A stretch of DNA of 64,000 nt from Beverwykella pulmonaria (lineage: Eukaryota; Ascomycota; Dothideomycetes; Pleosporales; Melanommataceae), in NCBI GenBank assembly GCA_001599595.1, contig BCHH01000001.1, positions 2,513,837-2,577,836 on the forward strand, in the 5' to 3' direction. Positions 8,970 to 40,756 of this stretch are shown here, in pieces. The notes under the pieces are model-generated. The model saw only the letters and a list, made by a program, of their open reading frames with translations, did no database searches and was not told the origin of the DNA. Both the position numbers and the translations under genes were made by a program. Position 1 is the stretch's first letter; every line of letters starts with the position of its first letter.

Positions 8970-11404
8970 TTAAACGCTAAGCTTCTTGACCAGCAACCTC
9001 AACACCCAGTTCTTACATCCGGAATATGTTTCTACCCTCTCGATCTCATCCTGCACTCTTCCCTGTAGCCTCTCCAACGTTGCTTTGGTATAGTCTAGGC
9101 TGCCAGCATTCTTTAACTGCTCTAGTGCATGCTCCTTCAATGGTCTGCTCATGCCGCCTTTATCTCTCCGCTCTTGAAGAATTCCAAGAAGCTGAAGATT
9201 CGGCAGGTGGGAGTTCAAGGCGTGCACCACAGGAAATGAGTACTTCCCCTCATCTAAATCGTCGCAGAAGCCCTTTTGATTGGTATACTCCGCTGATGTG
9301 ATGTTTTGATAGTCGTCACGGATCTGGAACAGTTGGCCTAGCAGGGTTATAAGGTTGTTCAAGTCCATATTGCGGGTCTTAGGATGCGGACTGGTTACAA
9401 TGAGTAATCGTGTTAGGAGGCGAAAGAGACCTCCCGTTTTCTTGTTGACCATCTCTAGATACTCGTTTTCTGTGGGGCAGATTGAGTTGCGTGTCCAATG
9501 GAGATCGTAGCTTTGTCCTACATGTAAATTTTGCGTCTCCTCGATGAAGATCTCTAGCGCCTGCAGATTTCCTAACCGCCTGACTTCATCAACTGCCTGG
9601 ACGAAGATAAAATATGCTGAATTGATCGTCTGTGGCGTGCCAAATATGGTGTGCGTGGCCGGCTTACCGCGTCTAAACGTCGTGGAGTCTTCAATGTCAT
9701 CGATCATGAGAGACCCATTATGTAAGAGACTGATGATTGATTTGACCTGAGATACAATGGGCTCCGGAATCTCAAGCCAAACATTTAGCGAGTCAATAAA
9801 GGCATCTCGAATACCTTTCGAGGGTTGTGAGCTTATGTATTCAAAGGGACTTAGCACAAGCTCGACGCCCAGTTGAGAAATCCTGGATTTGCGTGAGTCA
9901 GGTGATTTTTCGGCTCCTGACAAGGCGGCTCCTGACAAGGCTGAAGATGCGGGAGAAGTCGGTGATCCAATGAATGCGCTTTCATAATCTAACGTTGACC
10001 CTTTGGAAAGTTGGTAGCTGCTTGCCTTCAAATTGGATGGTGATAATGTTCTTGATGGCATATTGAAGGGGTTTGTGTTAGAGAATGACGAGGCACTATC
10101 GTTACTGATTTCATGGTGATTCTTCCGTTCATCTGGATCATCCCCAAGTGTGCTGTTATGGAATTCTAATGTAGGAGGGTTTCTTTCGGCCGACATAGTA
10201 TATTCCGGGCCAGCATTAGGGTCGTAGCGATACTTCGCATTATATCGAGGGCATCCGAGGGACCAGATAATGTTTCCAGATATTAAGTAGGAGAGTGCTG
10301 AAAGATATAACCGCAGTTTTGGTGTGGTTCTCTGGTCAAAAGAATTGCGTAGTCGTTGGAACTCTTTCTCGTATCCAATCGTCTCTTTCTTCAATAACTC
10401 TTTCGCGTCTTCAATGCCGACATTATACCATTGCATGAAAAGCCATACACAATTGGTAAGTGAAGCTTGATCCGATGCCTTGTACTCTTCATATTCCACA
10501 TCGAACGAAAAATAATCATTCGCAAGGCAGAGAGCAGCGTAACATGAATGGACAATATTCGCAGTTTCCACTTCCTCCTCTTTACTCAGTCTCATACCCA
10601 TGCCCCAGAGCATAATAGCTTCTGCGCACCTAGAATTGCTGTTAACTAAGTTCCAATACTCTAGGTAAAAGCCGATTCGCTGATCGCTTACATAGCTCCA
10701 AAATCGACGATACGATAAGTCAGATATTCATCAATGTTTTCGAAGGACTTGCTATTATCTCGCTTGGTTGTTGCCGAAACCGAGGCTTCCCACTGCTCAA
10801 CCACTCTCGCAGAATGATCTTGGTCAATTGACATAAGATCCAGTATTATCTTTGACTGTAATTGTTTCATCCCGCTCGATGAATACGCAGTCTTTACCTC
10901 CGTTTCATTCAGGGCAAGCTCATTAGCGTGTGTGTTCGACTATCATCTGTCAGCTACATGAACCTGCAATAGGGTTCACAGCGTAGCACACTTACCTTGG
11001 TTCTTGCAGCTGACTCTAGGACTCTATCGTATATGAAGGCATCTTATATGGTGTTAGAATACCCGCGGTATATTATGGGGGTTTAAATTGGATGAACAAG
11101 CTGTCGCGAGGGGGTACTTACATTCAAAAAGATACGCAATAATGCTAATCCGCTCAGGCATACAAAAGGGAAAACTGAGTGCAACAATGCTACCATCGTT
11201 AGGATTGTATGTACCAAATTCATCAATGGGGCCTAAGTAGCTGGTCCAGTCTGACCGTAATTCGTGAGTAGATTTGTTTATTTCTCTTTCAGATTTGTGT
11301 TTTCGGAATGTGTAGCCAGAAGCAAAACCATGGGTGTCATAGCATAGGGGATGGATGAGTACAGAAGTCTTGTCCGCTTTGATTTGAACCTCCAAAAAAT
11401 CCAT
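8970..11404 (-). CDS. chimeric terpene synthase (class I cyclase + prenyltransferase)
   Basis: Bifunctional fungal di-/sesterterpene synthase: the C-terminal domain builds the linear prenyl diphosphate, the N-terminal domain cyclises it. Four exons (11404-11122, 11042-10996, 10939-10692, 10629-8970) keep frame and give 745 aa, the usual length. In the cyclase domain (about 1-335) the NSE triad is N230/S234/E238 in NDYFSFDVE. The first metal motif reads DRVLE at 100-104, with Arg where the family normally has a second Asp. A Ser/Asn-rich linker spans about 340-440. The prenyltransferase domain has DDIED at 503-507, DDYQN at 631-635 and the KYSFP block. The linker holds an in-frame 15-bp duplication (LSGAALSGAE). 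No P450, transporter or regulator is adjacent. Chain length (C20 or C25) and product cannot be read from the sequence. Confidence 0.92.
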
Positions 11405-27993: not shown

Positions 27994-30900
27994 ATGAGTT
28001 TCCGCAGTGATACGAAGAGCAGTCCGCAGGTGCAGCCAAAAACGAGCATTGAAATATGGGATGACTTTCTCGATAGTGAGAATCTGTACGACGACGGTCC
28101 GCGAAATTGCGCAACTGCAAAGTCCATTGGTACGTATCTCAGGAATATATTCAAACTCAGTAATTGAGACTGGCACATAAAGGGCGCCCGGATCCGCAAA
28201 GTCCAACCTCCGGGGAATGGCGCCCACGTGCCATTCGCTGGCAGTTTTTGACAGCACTTCTTCTGTTTACTTCTATTCTATGTATCGCCTTAGGCGTTTT
28301 GTGTTGGCAATCTCATAAGAATTACGGATTAGGCAGAGATGACGGCTCATCGATGCTTCAGTTTGGCTGGAGATTTAGTCCCACACTTATAGCAGTTGTG
28401 TATACACAGTTGGTTGCAATGGTCTTCGAAGATATCTCTCACACAGAGCCGTACGCCCTGCTAACAGCGTCATCCCCTCATGGGATTGGACCGGATTCGA
28501 CCCTCTTACAGGGTCCGCGAGCTTGGTGGGCTGCCTTCTCACATGGCTGTTCCAAGAAGAGAAATGGAGGTCGCAGGAGCTATGTCCTAATATGCGCAAC
28601 GCTTCTTCACGTCATCGGGTTTCTAGCCATATCGCCTCTATCTTCATCTCTCCTCGTGTCTGAGGACACGGCTATTTCTGGACAGGTGGATATTCTTCGG
28701 ATGATACCAAAACCAGATATTGGAATACCCATCGTTGCTTTTCGAGAGACCTACCTCCGAACCACCAGCAACTTGTTTCAAAATGCTTCGACATCCCCAT
28801 GGATCAATGGGAACTTTGTCATCTTGCCATTCTGGCCTGCCGCAACCGCAAGTCCAGGGTCTTTGAATGAGATTTCGTCTCCCGATTTCCAAAGATGGAA
28901 AACGGATACTTTCGTGTTTCAGCACCAATACGAATGTAATCCATTTAGCTTACAAGGCAAAAAAGCCTGGAATGAAACAATGTACGTGGATTCTGGTGGC
29001 ATAACGGAGGTGTATGACGCTCCATGGCAAAGCCTGGAACTGCAGTCTGCCGATAACTGTACCGTTGAGTTGCAGTTGAGTGGAACTTTTTGGGGTAACA
29101 CAGATAATGACTGGGGCATATGGACTAGTTGGTCAACATTGAATATGGGATATCCTTCTACAGAATTGGAGGACTTCCCGACGGCCATCTATTCATGGAA
29201 CCACAACACTAGCGAGCTACGTTCTACCTATTCCAAAGAATGTGACCAGACGCACGACCTTATTCTGCTCACAACCAAATGGAGAACATTAGATCCACCG
29301 GTCCAAGACGAATTTCCATTAAACTTCAGCATCCGGGCAGAGGCTTGTACTCATGAATATTATGTAGCTGAGCTACCGGTTATTCTTTCTACCTCCTTGG
29401 ATACACCACAAATTACATTTGACGAGCAAATGTTTCAGAACACTCGAAGCCGAGTATCTGAGCATATTCTTAACACTACGAAAATCCGAGAGCTGTCCCT
29501 CGACTCCAAATGGCCGGATTACGTAGGAACCAGGGTTTTGGCAGGACCATCTAGTGTACTTGGCTTGTTCAACGGCTTCAATATCACAGCCCTCATAGAT
29601 GATCCATCACTACCTGAAAAAGCCGCGGGTATTATGCACCGTTTCTTTGGAGAAGTCATTGTTGCATCATTGGCTCAACAAAACGCCACCACATTAGAAA
29701 TAACGCATGGATCAATTTCACACACCGAGAGAAGGATAGCCGTAGTTGTCGAAGTTGCTCTACTGATTGGCACATTGCTTCTCTTCTCATTATTCCTCCA
29801 GGCTCTTGTCTTCTTTCTCTCTACCCATCGGCGCCGGCCTCTTGGACTCAACGCCGATCCTACAACTACAATTGGTGCTGCCTCACTCGTCACTTCACCT
29901 ATAAGTTTCCTTGTGCTATGCCGTCTTCGACACTACTGTCATACACCAAAAAGTACTCTAAGAAGTCTACATGAGGCACGATTTTCTATAGAGTCCGGCC
30001 AACTTTTGGAACACGGAAGTACAAATGAAAATAAGAAATGTAAGTCATCCCTTTCGCTATCAATCAACTCACCTTGCTCAACCGTTGTAGTAATTCCGGA
30101 AACGAAATTCGATACCTTAGAATCCAACCCCAGGTCTTTGAAGAAATTTGGCCTTATCGCTTTTACCATCTATCTCTCTACAATCTTAATTTCTATTTTA
30201 ATTCTACGAAAACTTGCGAAACAGTCAAGATTATATCAATCAGCCATTGTATATCAAGCAGACCTGCCACTGTTTGTTAATCGGATTTCAGCATTTGCCC
30301 CATACTCTATCGTACCCACACTCCTAGTAGTTATTGTAGGGCTATGGTGGGCTGCAATCGACGAGGCTTTTCGCGAGCTACAGCCTTTTCTTGCAATGGC
30401 GAGGCGTCCTGTACATCTAGATGGCGGTGGAGGACTCTCGTACAAATCTAAGCACTGGATAACTGCGACATATACTGCTGTGCGAAGGAAACACTGGCTG
30501 CTCGCCTCTATTTCATTAGGTAGCATGTTCTGCCAAATCCGTAAGTTACATCTCACTCGGAGGTATACGTTGCGTGGAAAACTGTTTGACATTTAACTAG
30601 TTACAATATCAATATCTGCACTCTTCCGGCGCACCGATGGGAATTTGATGCAGCCGATCAGCCTTCGACGAGATGTGGAAATGCGACTCCTTCCGTTCCT
30701 TCAGGAGACGCCAATTCTTTACGCAACCGAAACGTATAGAGGGACTAGGACCAGCCTTTATCGGAATTTGACAGCGAACTGGATAAACACTGCTACAGAA
30801 CAGCTTACGCTTAATGGATCAGAGCCTCCCTGGTCTAGTCAAGGCTGGTCCTTTGCCCCGATACCTCTTGTCCTTGCGGATAGTCAGGTCGCTAAAGTTT

Positions 30901-32525
30901 CGACCGATTTATCAAATGCCGCAAACATCTCGTTTCAGACGACGGCTATGCGGGGCCGAATCGAATGTCAGCAATTGCAAATCAGTGATTGGGTTGATGC
31001 TGTGAATTACACAGCTTCAAAAAGGAGTAGTACTTCACGGGGGGAACCTACACGATACGAGCTGAAACGAACAGTGTCTTGGGATACAGGAAATTCATCG
31101 GTTTTGGCGCATCCTTACCGACCAGTTTGCTGTGTGAACGGGACAACTCCAGAACCAGGATCTGTCGCGATTGGTTATTGGTCCATGAACGATCAAAGCT
31201 CCGTTACGGATTGGTCGCGTGCCTGGCCTCAAAATTTCACAGTGAAATGGATTCGGGGTGTAGCCGACTACTACGGAATCCGACAAGTTAAGTACTTTAA
31301 ATCAGAAAGCAATCTCGGATTTATGGAAATACCGGCCGCACAAGCTCTGAATTGTCAGCCTGTTATTGAAAGCGCAAACGCGCAAGTCACCGTAGATCAT
31401 ATCACGGGGAAAGTGCGTTCCTTTGAGATTGTAGACTCACCAAAGCCACTTCAAGAAGCATGGTCCGACGCACTTATCGTTCGAGAAATGAAAGCAGTGA
31501 ACCAATCAAGGCTGGACCAAACTCCTCCCTATTGGGAAGCAGTCGCCAATATCACGACTAGGTATGCCTCACTCTCAATTTCGCTTAGGAGCAGGCACGC
31601 TGATTTTATATTTAGTCACGGTATTATATTCATGATAACCTTACTCACAGCCTCCGATTCCCACATCTGGACTTCCATAGAGCAAGAGGACACTCCAGGC
31701 TTCGTTTATGACGAGGTTTATGACGAACCTTTGACTGAAGCGAGATTCAGTATCAAGGATAGTAACGTCGGTCTCAACATCGACTTCATGACTTACGCTA
31801 TGTATTCGCTCGCCAGAAGAAACCCCGAAGCGTTACTTAACGCAACAACCATGTATACACTAGCCAACAAAACATTCTCAACATTCTTCCAGCACTTTGT
31901 CAGCAACAATGTAGATGCTACAGAGGCAAGTTGGGCATGGCAAAAGATTGGCGACACTTCCTTAGACGATTTGCTTCGAATGAATGGTTCCGTCCGGTAC
32001 GATAACAGATCGATGAATGAAGGTATTGTAATTCCAACGGCATACCCAATCTCTAATACAAGCCGCTACGTCAACGCCACGCTCTCTACTAATGTTAACA
32101 ACCTACGAATGAACGAAATGGCAGCCTCTGTATCTATGGCCATCCTGGTCTGGCTTTTGATTACCTCCATTGTCATCATAGTCCTGTCGCATCGCCACAT
32201 CCACCTCCTCCGCCACAATATTGAATGCCTTGCCGATGTCCTAGTACTGGTTGCTGGCAGTGATAATTTGCTAAGGCTCATCCAACAGGATGCGGAGCGT
32301 TTGAAGCGCGATAAGGATATTTTGATTCGTTTGGGTTGGTTCAAGGGCAATGACGAAAAGGTAAGATGGGGGATCGAGGTTTTTGGTAAGGCGGGAGAAG
32401 GTGGAGAGGCAGTTAAGTGGGTTGAAGAGCCTGGAGAAGAAAAGGAGGGTAGGTGGAAGAAGCCAGGGACGGTTGTGAGGTGGAAGGATAGAGTGAGAAA
32501 GATATTGGAGCGCTTTGGCTTCTAA
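27994..32525 (+). CDS. large multi-pass membrane protein, DUF3433 family
   Basis: Three exons (27994-28129, 28183-30540, 30601-32525) give 1472 aa. The soluble N-terminus starts MSFRSDTKSSPQVQP. Hydrophobic segments follow, e.g. FLTALLLFTSILCIALGVL, then the hallmark EDISHTEPYALL, as in fungal DUF3433 proteins, and LICATLLHVIGFLAISPL. Two long Asn-glycosylation-rich lumenal or extracellular regions alternate with membrane clusters (e.g. VVVEVALLIGTLLLFSLFL and VSMAILVWLLITSIVIIVL). The C-terminus is short and basic. The family is restricted to filamentous fungi; its function is unknown. A GT-AG stretch at 31562-31615 (54 nt, in frame, no stop) could be a further intron and would shorten the protein by 18 aa. 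Confidence 0.85.
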
Positions 32526-40622: not shown

Positions 40623-40746
40623 GGGCTTGTGGTTTAGTGGTATAATTTTCCCTTAGCATGGGAAAGGTCCTGGGTTCGAGTACGTCTCCCCCTTATCCAT
40701 CAACCTGCGGCTTCATACTAACATGCGATAGTTCCCAGCAAGTCCA
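40623..40746 (+). tRNA. tRNA-Ala(AGC) interrupted in the T-loop by a 52-nt GT-AG intron-like insert
   Basis: Exonic parts 40623-40679 and 40732-40746 together fold into a full tRNA. The acceptor GGGCTTG/CAAGTCC includes G3:U70, the alanine identity pair, and the discriminator is A73. The anticodon stem TTCCC/GGGAA encloses loop TTAGCAT, anticodon AGC. The T arm becomes CTGGG-TTCGATT-CCCAG, perfect only after removing 40680-40731. That segment starts GTACGT, contains TACTAAC at 40717-40723 and ends TAG eight bases after it, just like the mRNA introns of this window. There is no insert at the canonical 37/38 site. A T5 Pol III terminator follows at 40752-40756. The insert splits the B box between GGTTCGA and TTCC, though its first bases partly restore it. 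Confidence 0.85.
40680..40731 (+). other. spliceosomal-type intron candidate inside tRNA-Ala
   Basis: 52 nt with GTACGT at the 5' end, TACTAAC at 40717-40723 and TAG at the 3' end. Length and signals match protein-gene introns nearby. Shifting the boundaries by one base would also leave a seven-base T-loop (TTCGAGT), but would lose GT-AG. Confidence 0.75.
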
Positions 40747-40751
40747 GTATC

Positions 40752-40756
40752 TTTTT
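40752..40756 (+). terminator. Pol III terminator of tRNA-Ala
   Basis: Run of five T six bases after the discriminator base, where a Pol III terminator is expected. It shows that the tRNA 3' exon, beyond the insert, belongs to the transcript. Confidence 0.7.

Follow-up and report, generated by a model that had tools for sequence, protein, structure and literature searches.

A passage of a 2017 paper names U3 and U6 as the sole small structured RNAs in which introns are known to be frequent (PMC5832005). The fungal U6 snRNA and U3 snoRNA introns are short spliceosomal introns in small structured RNA genes, U6 being a Pol III gene, and in this they resemble the introns described here; the present case differs in that at least 19 tRNA genes are the hosts, that most of the introns lie within the internal promoter, and that many of the host RNAs also need endonuclease splicing. 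Fungal nuclear rDNA likewise carries mRNA-type introns in a non-coding RNA gene that is not made by Pol II, with an RNA, a polymerase and a maturation path different from those of the tRNA introns considered here. One case of a spliceosomal intron in fungal rDNA is cited in the reference list of PMC11782384.

In the part concerned of a 2026 review, tRNA splicing is set apart from the spliceosome (PMC13149111), and a section of the tRNAscan-SE 2.0 paper gives a single intron as the limit for a eukaryotic tRNA gene (PMC8450103). Ectopic eukaryotic tRNA introns are supposed to be rare, and most such insertions to be pseudogenes, nucleomorphs excepted, in a passage of a 2014 review (PMC4090602). 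Cyanidioschyzon merolae has three-intron tRNAs with bulge-helix-bulge motifs, 53/54 being among the sites (excerpt of PMC9602550). C. merolae, nucleomorphs and Crenarchaeota are like the present genome in having D- and T-arm introns, including at 53/54, with several per gene (parts of PMC9602550, PMC4090602 and PMC8450103). Unlike those ectopic introns, in which bulge-helix-bulge is a structural endonuclease motif, the introns analyzed here have GT..CTRAY..AG at the length of fungal mRNA introns. In a literature collection with few subscription papers and no bioRxiv preprints, none of the matches listed describes a tRNA gene with a spliceosomal intron. For U6, a Pol III gene, such introns are already known; no precedent was found within tRNA biology.

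The interrupted tRNA-Ala(AGC) gene and its paralogues

The window, i.e., the whole stretch of 64,000 nucleotides that was analyzed, gave no tRNA match when scanned with ARAGORN and with Rfam at the gathering score. A 72-nt tRNA-Ala(AGC) is legible at 40623-40746 of the forward strand once 40680-40731 is left out, and ARAGORN names it tRNA-Ala(AGC) after deletion of these 52 nt. The gene has the following features.

40623..40679 (57 nt), + strand: tRNA-Ala(AGC) exon 1, positions 1-58, 100% identical in C8:768879 and C14:149382
40630..40640, + strand: A box region TGGTTTAGTGG, unbroken, read from the sequence against the general consensus
40673..40683, + strand: B-box-like GGTTCGAGTAC, formed by the end of exon 1 and the start of the intron, 10/11 to the general consensus GGTTCRANYCC
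40680..40731 (52 nt), + strand: spliceosomal-type intron at 58/59
40680..40685, + strand: 5′ splice site GTACGT
40716..40722, + strand: branch-point-like TACTAAC, with the branch A at 40721, 10 nt before the 3′ end
40729..40731, + strand: 3′ splice site TAG
40732..40746 (15 nt), + strand: tRNA-Ala(AGC) exon 2, positions 59-73, identical in the C8 and C14 copies
40752..40756, + strand: T5 run, Pol III terminator-like

The sequence-only reading had claimed that the tRNA is complete only without the 52 nt, and this was borne out, since G3:U70, A73, the AGC anticodon, a 5-bp T stem and a 7-nt T loop are all in place after their removal. The mRNA-intron signals that it had noticed (the GTACGT start, the TACTAAC and the TAG end) lie where it put them, its coordinates for an insertion at T-loop 58/59 rather than at 37/38 are exact, with no sliding ambiguity of the exon-intron junction, and the Pol III T run that it had reported after exon 2 is the T5 listed above. 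The motif GTRNGT-N26..40-CTRAY-N3..12-YAG occurs at about 1 in 10,000 window positions (12 starts among 128,000 strand positions, a count that takes in genuine mRNA introns). No match to a group I or group II intron ribozyme was found by Rfam within the window, which holds the Ala intron alone of the 21 extra introns described below, and their lengths of 47-72 nt are far too short for either class.

A comparison with the other Ala-AGC genes and a covariance-model scoring had also been proposed from the letters, and both were made in the genome searched (45.6 Mb, 31 contigs). Exon 1 is present three times, each copy being 100% identical. The C8 copy has no insert and its exons are identical to those of the window gene, and the C14 copy carries, after position 58, an unrelated 49-nt GT-AG insert (GTGAGT..TACTAAT..TATCAG), followed by the same exon 2 and a T8 run. 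In a covariance model built from 22 tRNAs of this genome, the C8 Ala copy among them, the window gene scored 43.4 bits versus 77.8 for the uninterrupted C8 copy, and the C14 copy scored 35.9 bits. Because an intronless Ala-AGC copy exists, the window gene may be dispensable.

Extra introns in the tRNA genes of one fungal genome

At least 19 tRNA genes of this one fungal genome, covering 14 isoacceptors, were found to carry a total of 21 introns outside 37/38. In addition to the two Ala genes, they are the following.

53/54 introns: His-GTG, Trp-CCA, Leu-TAG (from Rfam tRNA matches)
58/59 intron: Cys-GCA (from Rfam tRNA matches)
Variable-arm intron: Ser-GCT, L027 (from Rfam tRNA matches; misread by ARAGORN as Leu)
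53/54 introns: Lys-CTT, Gln-CTG (from short pattern searches)
58/59 introns: Arg-ACG, Asp (two genes), Val-AAC, Pro-TGG, Gly-GCC (two genes), Ile-TAT (from short pattern searches)
58/59 intron: a third Gly-GCC (from homology search)
52/53 intron: a second Val-AAC (from homology search)

The sites are 58/59 (n = 12), 53/54 (n = 5), 52/53 (n = 1), the D loop (n = 2) and the variable arm (n = 1), and these position counts, like part of the motif statistics below, are biased by the motif-driven searches. None of the 21 extra introns is at 37/38, the site of tRNA endonuclease introns in eukaryotic nuclei. A separate anticodon-arm intron is present in 14 of the 19 interrupted genes, and the D-loop introns are the second extra introns of the two interrupted Asp genes, each of which has an anticodon-arm intron as well. 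The searches also turned up about 34 tRNA genes free of extra introns, but 19 of about 53 is no unbiased fraction, since the searches were aimed at interrupted genes. The set is incomplete: in the genome-wide Rfam tRNA search, 63 of the 1174 candidates were scored and 39 matches listed, and no Phe, Tyr, Glu or elongator-Met gene was identified among the tRNAs found.

The yield of the searches varied. The first 53/54 pattern gave 12 matches (control, 13), of which four were tRNA genes (Leu-TAG and His, already known, and Lys and Gln, new) and eight were not, and the 58/59 pattern gave 30 matches (control, 42), three of them already known, with eight tRNA genes among the 27 others inspected. When position 52 of the 58/59 pattern was set to be other than G, none of the 12 matches (36 in the reversed-pattern control) was a tRNA gene. 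A relaxed 53/54 pattern had six matches (control, 16), one being the known Trp gene; the other five were inspected, and the single detector match among them, with a 94-nt intron (L120), was judged spurious. A query with eight fungal tRNAs returned one match, Pro-AGG, which has no extra intron, and exact exon patterns had no match in three scans of viral contigs and one of GTDB contigs. Two ARAGORN calls of Glu (L026 and L029) were read instead as Leu-CAA and Arg-TCG. A Phe D-arm pattern had four matches (control, 2), two of which were inspected and held no tRNA, and one lies inside L033 (G000:C5:674835-674920, − strand), a tRNA that we read as Ile-like, in which positions 34-36 appear as ATA beside the anticodon-arm intron and which ARAGORN calls Thr(tgt); its intron may be wrongly set, or the gene may be defective. 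A weak organelle-like tRNA (L039, G000:C17:711695-711764, − strand), scored at 31 bits by the Rfam model, agrees with none of the nuclear isoacceptors found in this genome and is possibly mitochondrial DNA in the nucleus.

The extra introns share one build. They start with GT in 20 of 21 cases and with GC in one (GCAAGT), and all have G at +5, a tally in which 11 of the 21 introns owed their discovery to a splice motif. The 3′ end is AG throughout (CAG in 12, TAG in seven, AAG in two), which was demanded in the pattern scans and in the placement of the junctions. CTRAY is present within the last 30 nt of 20 introns, whereas 2000 rounds of shuffling gave 2.66 on average and never more than 10; the sole intron without CTRAY has TTAAC, and YTRAY occurs somewhere in all 21. 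In 19 of the 20 CTRAY introns, 9-13 nt separate the branch A from the 3′ end, and the length is 47-55 nt in 20 of the 21, the remaining one being 72 nt long. The 10 introns that came to light without a motif match of their own (Ala_2, Cys, His, Trp, Leu, Ser, Val_2, Gly_3 and the two Asp D-loop introns) all begin with GT or GC, carry G at +5 and CTRAY, and end in AG, the AG having been required in their placement. The junction is fixed in three of these 10, slides by one base in three and by two bases in two, slides one base either way in Ser, and may be shifted by −1/+3 in Val_2.

When all pairs of introns were compared, only those of the two Asp genes stood out (z of 5.6 and 3.2; the next, 3.0), so that no shared mobile element is visible. 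As the inserts differ and lie in independent genes (21 introns, 19 genes), a chance origin is untenable. A strict 4-bp central helix of a bulge-helix-bulge was found in 0 of 21 extra introns and likewise in 0 of 16 canonical controls, so this test does not discriminate; none of the 37/38 introns inspected by eye has the full GT..CTRAY..AG set. That the introns in many tRNA genes of this fungus are, as judged from their letters, of the spliceosomal type is well supported.

The same build was observed in the only U6 match found (L036 1500-1690; G000:C3:4042637-4042737 and downstream), where a 55-nt mRNA-type intron (GTAAGT..CTAAC..CAG) follows GGATGACA of the U6 snRNA gene. A B-box-like GGTTCGAATCT lies downstream of the T run of this gene. 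The proposal that the Ala insert is an mRNA-type intron, made from a single locus, holds and is much strengthened by the comparable inserts of 18 further tRNA genes and U6. The window offered two mRNA introns for comparison, namely one of 53 nt in the Gaa1 gene (GTGAGA..TACTGAT..TAG) and one of 62 nt in a terpene synthase gene (GTAAGC..TTAAC..TAG), and both resemble the tRNA introns in build; these two only were placed, via the proteins of relatives, with GT or GC and AG required, no mRNA intron could be placed in the first intron region of the terpene gene, and one in Vps41 was read in part. In contrast to U6 and to many of the tRNA genes, the 23 full-length matches to 5S rRNA (RF00001) are uninterrupted; they are dispersed over many contigs, three matches below the cut-off having been left out, and this is a search that interrupted 5S genes could escape.

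Internal promoter and integrity of the interrupted genes

The B box covers positions 52-62 and has the consensus GGTTCGANTCC. We counted how many of 10 B-box bases are kept when a GT..AG intron is placed after each position: all 10 after 49-52, nine after 53, seven after 54, six after 55-57, eight after 58, seven after 59, eight after 60, nine after 61, and again 10 after 62-65. Hence, the observed 52/53, 53/54 and 58/59 sites retain much of the B box, and introns after 54-57, where the breakage would be worst, were not seen. Introns after 49-51 and 60-65 were also not seen, though the B box would be kept there as well as or better than at 58/59, so survival of the B box is by itself no full explanation of the positions; the search patterns, moreover, were weighted towards 53/54 and 58/59. 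The 11-mer most like a B box by each T-arm junction of the unspliced genes has 9-11 matches of 11 in 18 of 18 introns, partly by construction, and the A box is split by the two D-loop introns. The doubt raised earlier, whether a gene with a split B box would be transcribed at all, is answered in part for the Ala gene, in which the first bases of the intron complete the near-consensus GGTTCGAGTAC.

By several marks, the interrupted genes appear functional. ARAGORN named none of the 19 unspliced genes correctly (it misread Ser-GCT and returned nothing for the other 18), and after removal it found a tRNA in all 19, with the expected anticodon in 17; the other anticodon obtained for Asp_1 and Val_2 is put down to its placement of the anticodon-arm intron. 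A run of T5-T9 begins 5-16 nt past the discriminator base in all 19 genes. Inside the introns, a run of T4 or longer occurs in one of 21, against 4.6 expected (2.9% of shuffles were as low), and T5 or longer in none, against 1.4 expected, which is not significant (23% of shuffles were as low). One mismatched anticodon-stem pair was noted by eye in each of Trp, His and Ile.

Copies both with and without an extra intron were found for Ala, Ser-GCT, Lys-CTT, Gln-CTG and Asp. As compared with the intact copy, the exons are identical for Ala and Lys and show one difference for Ser. The two Lys-CTT genes, L023 (C5) and L055 (C12), are letter-identical in exons and anticodon-arm intron; a single 53-nt T-arm intron sets them apart, pointing to its recent gain or loss. 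The mature sequence is identical among the three Ala-AGC genes (two interrupted, one intact) and also among the three Gly-GCC genes, and in both sets the introns are unrelated. For Cys, His, Trp and Leu-TAG a single gene each was found by a mature-sequence search, and all four are interrupted; among the genes found, only interrupted ones represent Arg-ACG, Pro-TGG and Ile-TAT (one each), Val-AAC (2/2) and Gly-GCC (3/3). The same searches returned uninterrupted Gln (76%) and Asp (72%, identities with gaps included) genes that have anticodon-arm introns. These searches were non-exhaustive and missed two known interrupted Asp genes with short exons; uninterrupted copies should be easier to find than interrupted ones.

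Proposed removal of the extra introns and rival explanations

Read from the sequence are the intron positions and splice signals, the cloverleaf restored by removal, the terminator-like T runs, the paralogues that lack an intron, and the intron of U6. The best explanation for them is that tRNA-Ala(AGC) would be a real gene whose T loop holds a U2-type intron, and that this fungus has many tRNA genes of the kind. We consider it highly probable (about 0.88) that Pol III transcribes these tRNA genes and that the spliceosome removes the extra introns. In the proposed pathway, Pol III would transcribe the interrupted gene from its intact A box and a surviving B box, which is mostly completed by the GT of the intron (58/59) or by its AG (52/53 and 53/54), and would terminate at the T run past the last exon. 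The spliceosome would then recognise GTRNGT, a CTRAY about 10 nt from the end, and AG, and removal of the lariat would rebuild the T arm. Where a 37/38 intron is present, the tRNA endonuclease would take it out separately, and the usual end-processing enzymes would finish the tRNA. Transcription, spliceosomal removal and use of the product are what we infer here.

The extra introns might instead be excised by the tRNA splicing endonuclease and ligase, as ectopic bulge-helix-bulge introns are in red algae and archaea, with GT, branch and AG being incidental. Such introns are known at 12/13 and 53/54 in C. merolae (excerpt of PMC9602550), and the 14 genes of the 19 that have anticodon-arm introns point to working endonuclease splicing in this fungus. 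The endonuclease, however, reads structure and not GT..CTRAY..AG, whereas 20 of the 21 extra introns have the full set at near-fixed spacing, a set absent from the 37/38 introns inspected by eye, and we regard excision by the endonuclease as very unlikely. We give equally little credence to the view that the interrupted genes are pseudogenes disabled by insertion and that uninterrupted copies supply the tRNA pool. It draws on the intact copies of Ala-AGC, Ser-GCT, Lys-CTT, Gln-CTG and Asp, and on a passage of the 2014 review in which eukaryotic tRNA genes with a short insertion in the D or T arm are supposed to be pseudogenes (PMC4090602), but ARAGORN accepts all 19 genes after removal, the Ala and the Gly-GCC copies agree in mature form despite unrelated introns, terminator-like runs are retained, every insert has splice signals, and non-exhaustive DNA searches gave only interrupted genes for Cys, His and Trp. 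The sequence-only reading had kept a dead gene as an alternative for the Ala locus, and this is now disfavoured by exons that match intact copies, by unrelated introns and by the several isoacceptors found only in interrupted form.

The mRNA type of the splice signals would also be expected if the genes lay within Pol II transcripts, the introns being those of an mRNA or non-coding RNA that overlaps them and the tRNA a coincidence. This is the least credible of the alternatives, since 18 of the 21 introns are exactly at tRNA 52/53, 53/54 or 58/59, removal rebuilds a tRNA in all 19 genes, and T5-T9 lies within 16 nt after each gene. Returning to spliceosomal removal from Pol III transcripts, we find a wider form of it somewhat more likely than not, in which the spliceosome would be an essential tRNA-maturation enzyme in this lineage, with the sole Cys, His and Trp genes dependent on it and two splicing machines acting on a precursor. 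The introns would then have entered tRNA genes repeatedly, and in part recently, by reverse splicing or a similar route, where GT or AG keeps the promoter readable.

If these introns are spliced, a rule would be broken on a genomic scale, translation would depend directly on the mRNA splicing machinery, and tRNA finders restricted to anticodon-arm introns would overlook essential genes. The pairs of paralogues with and without an intron, whose exons are identical or nearly so, are a rare test bed for intron gain and for the tolerance of the Pol III promoter.

As for the other genes of the window, the Gaa1 protein has 90% identity to that of Melanomma pulvis-pyrius and 87% to that of Pleomassaria siparia. 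Melanomma belongs to the Pleosporales (Dothideomycetes), and the genome is that of a pleosporalean fungus close to it. A bifunctional terpene synthase/prenyltransferase gene lies at 8970-11386 (− strand), its relatives being named geranylgeranyl pyrophosphate, fusicoccadiene or ophiobolin F synthase. At 28164-32525 (+ strand), two abutting ORFs in the same frame, with a stop codon between them, jointly match a DUF3433 protein of 1353 residues at 35% identity.
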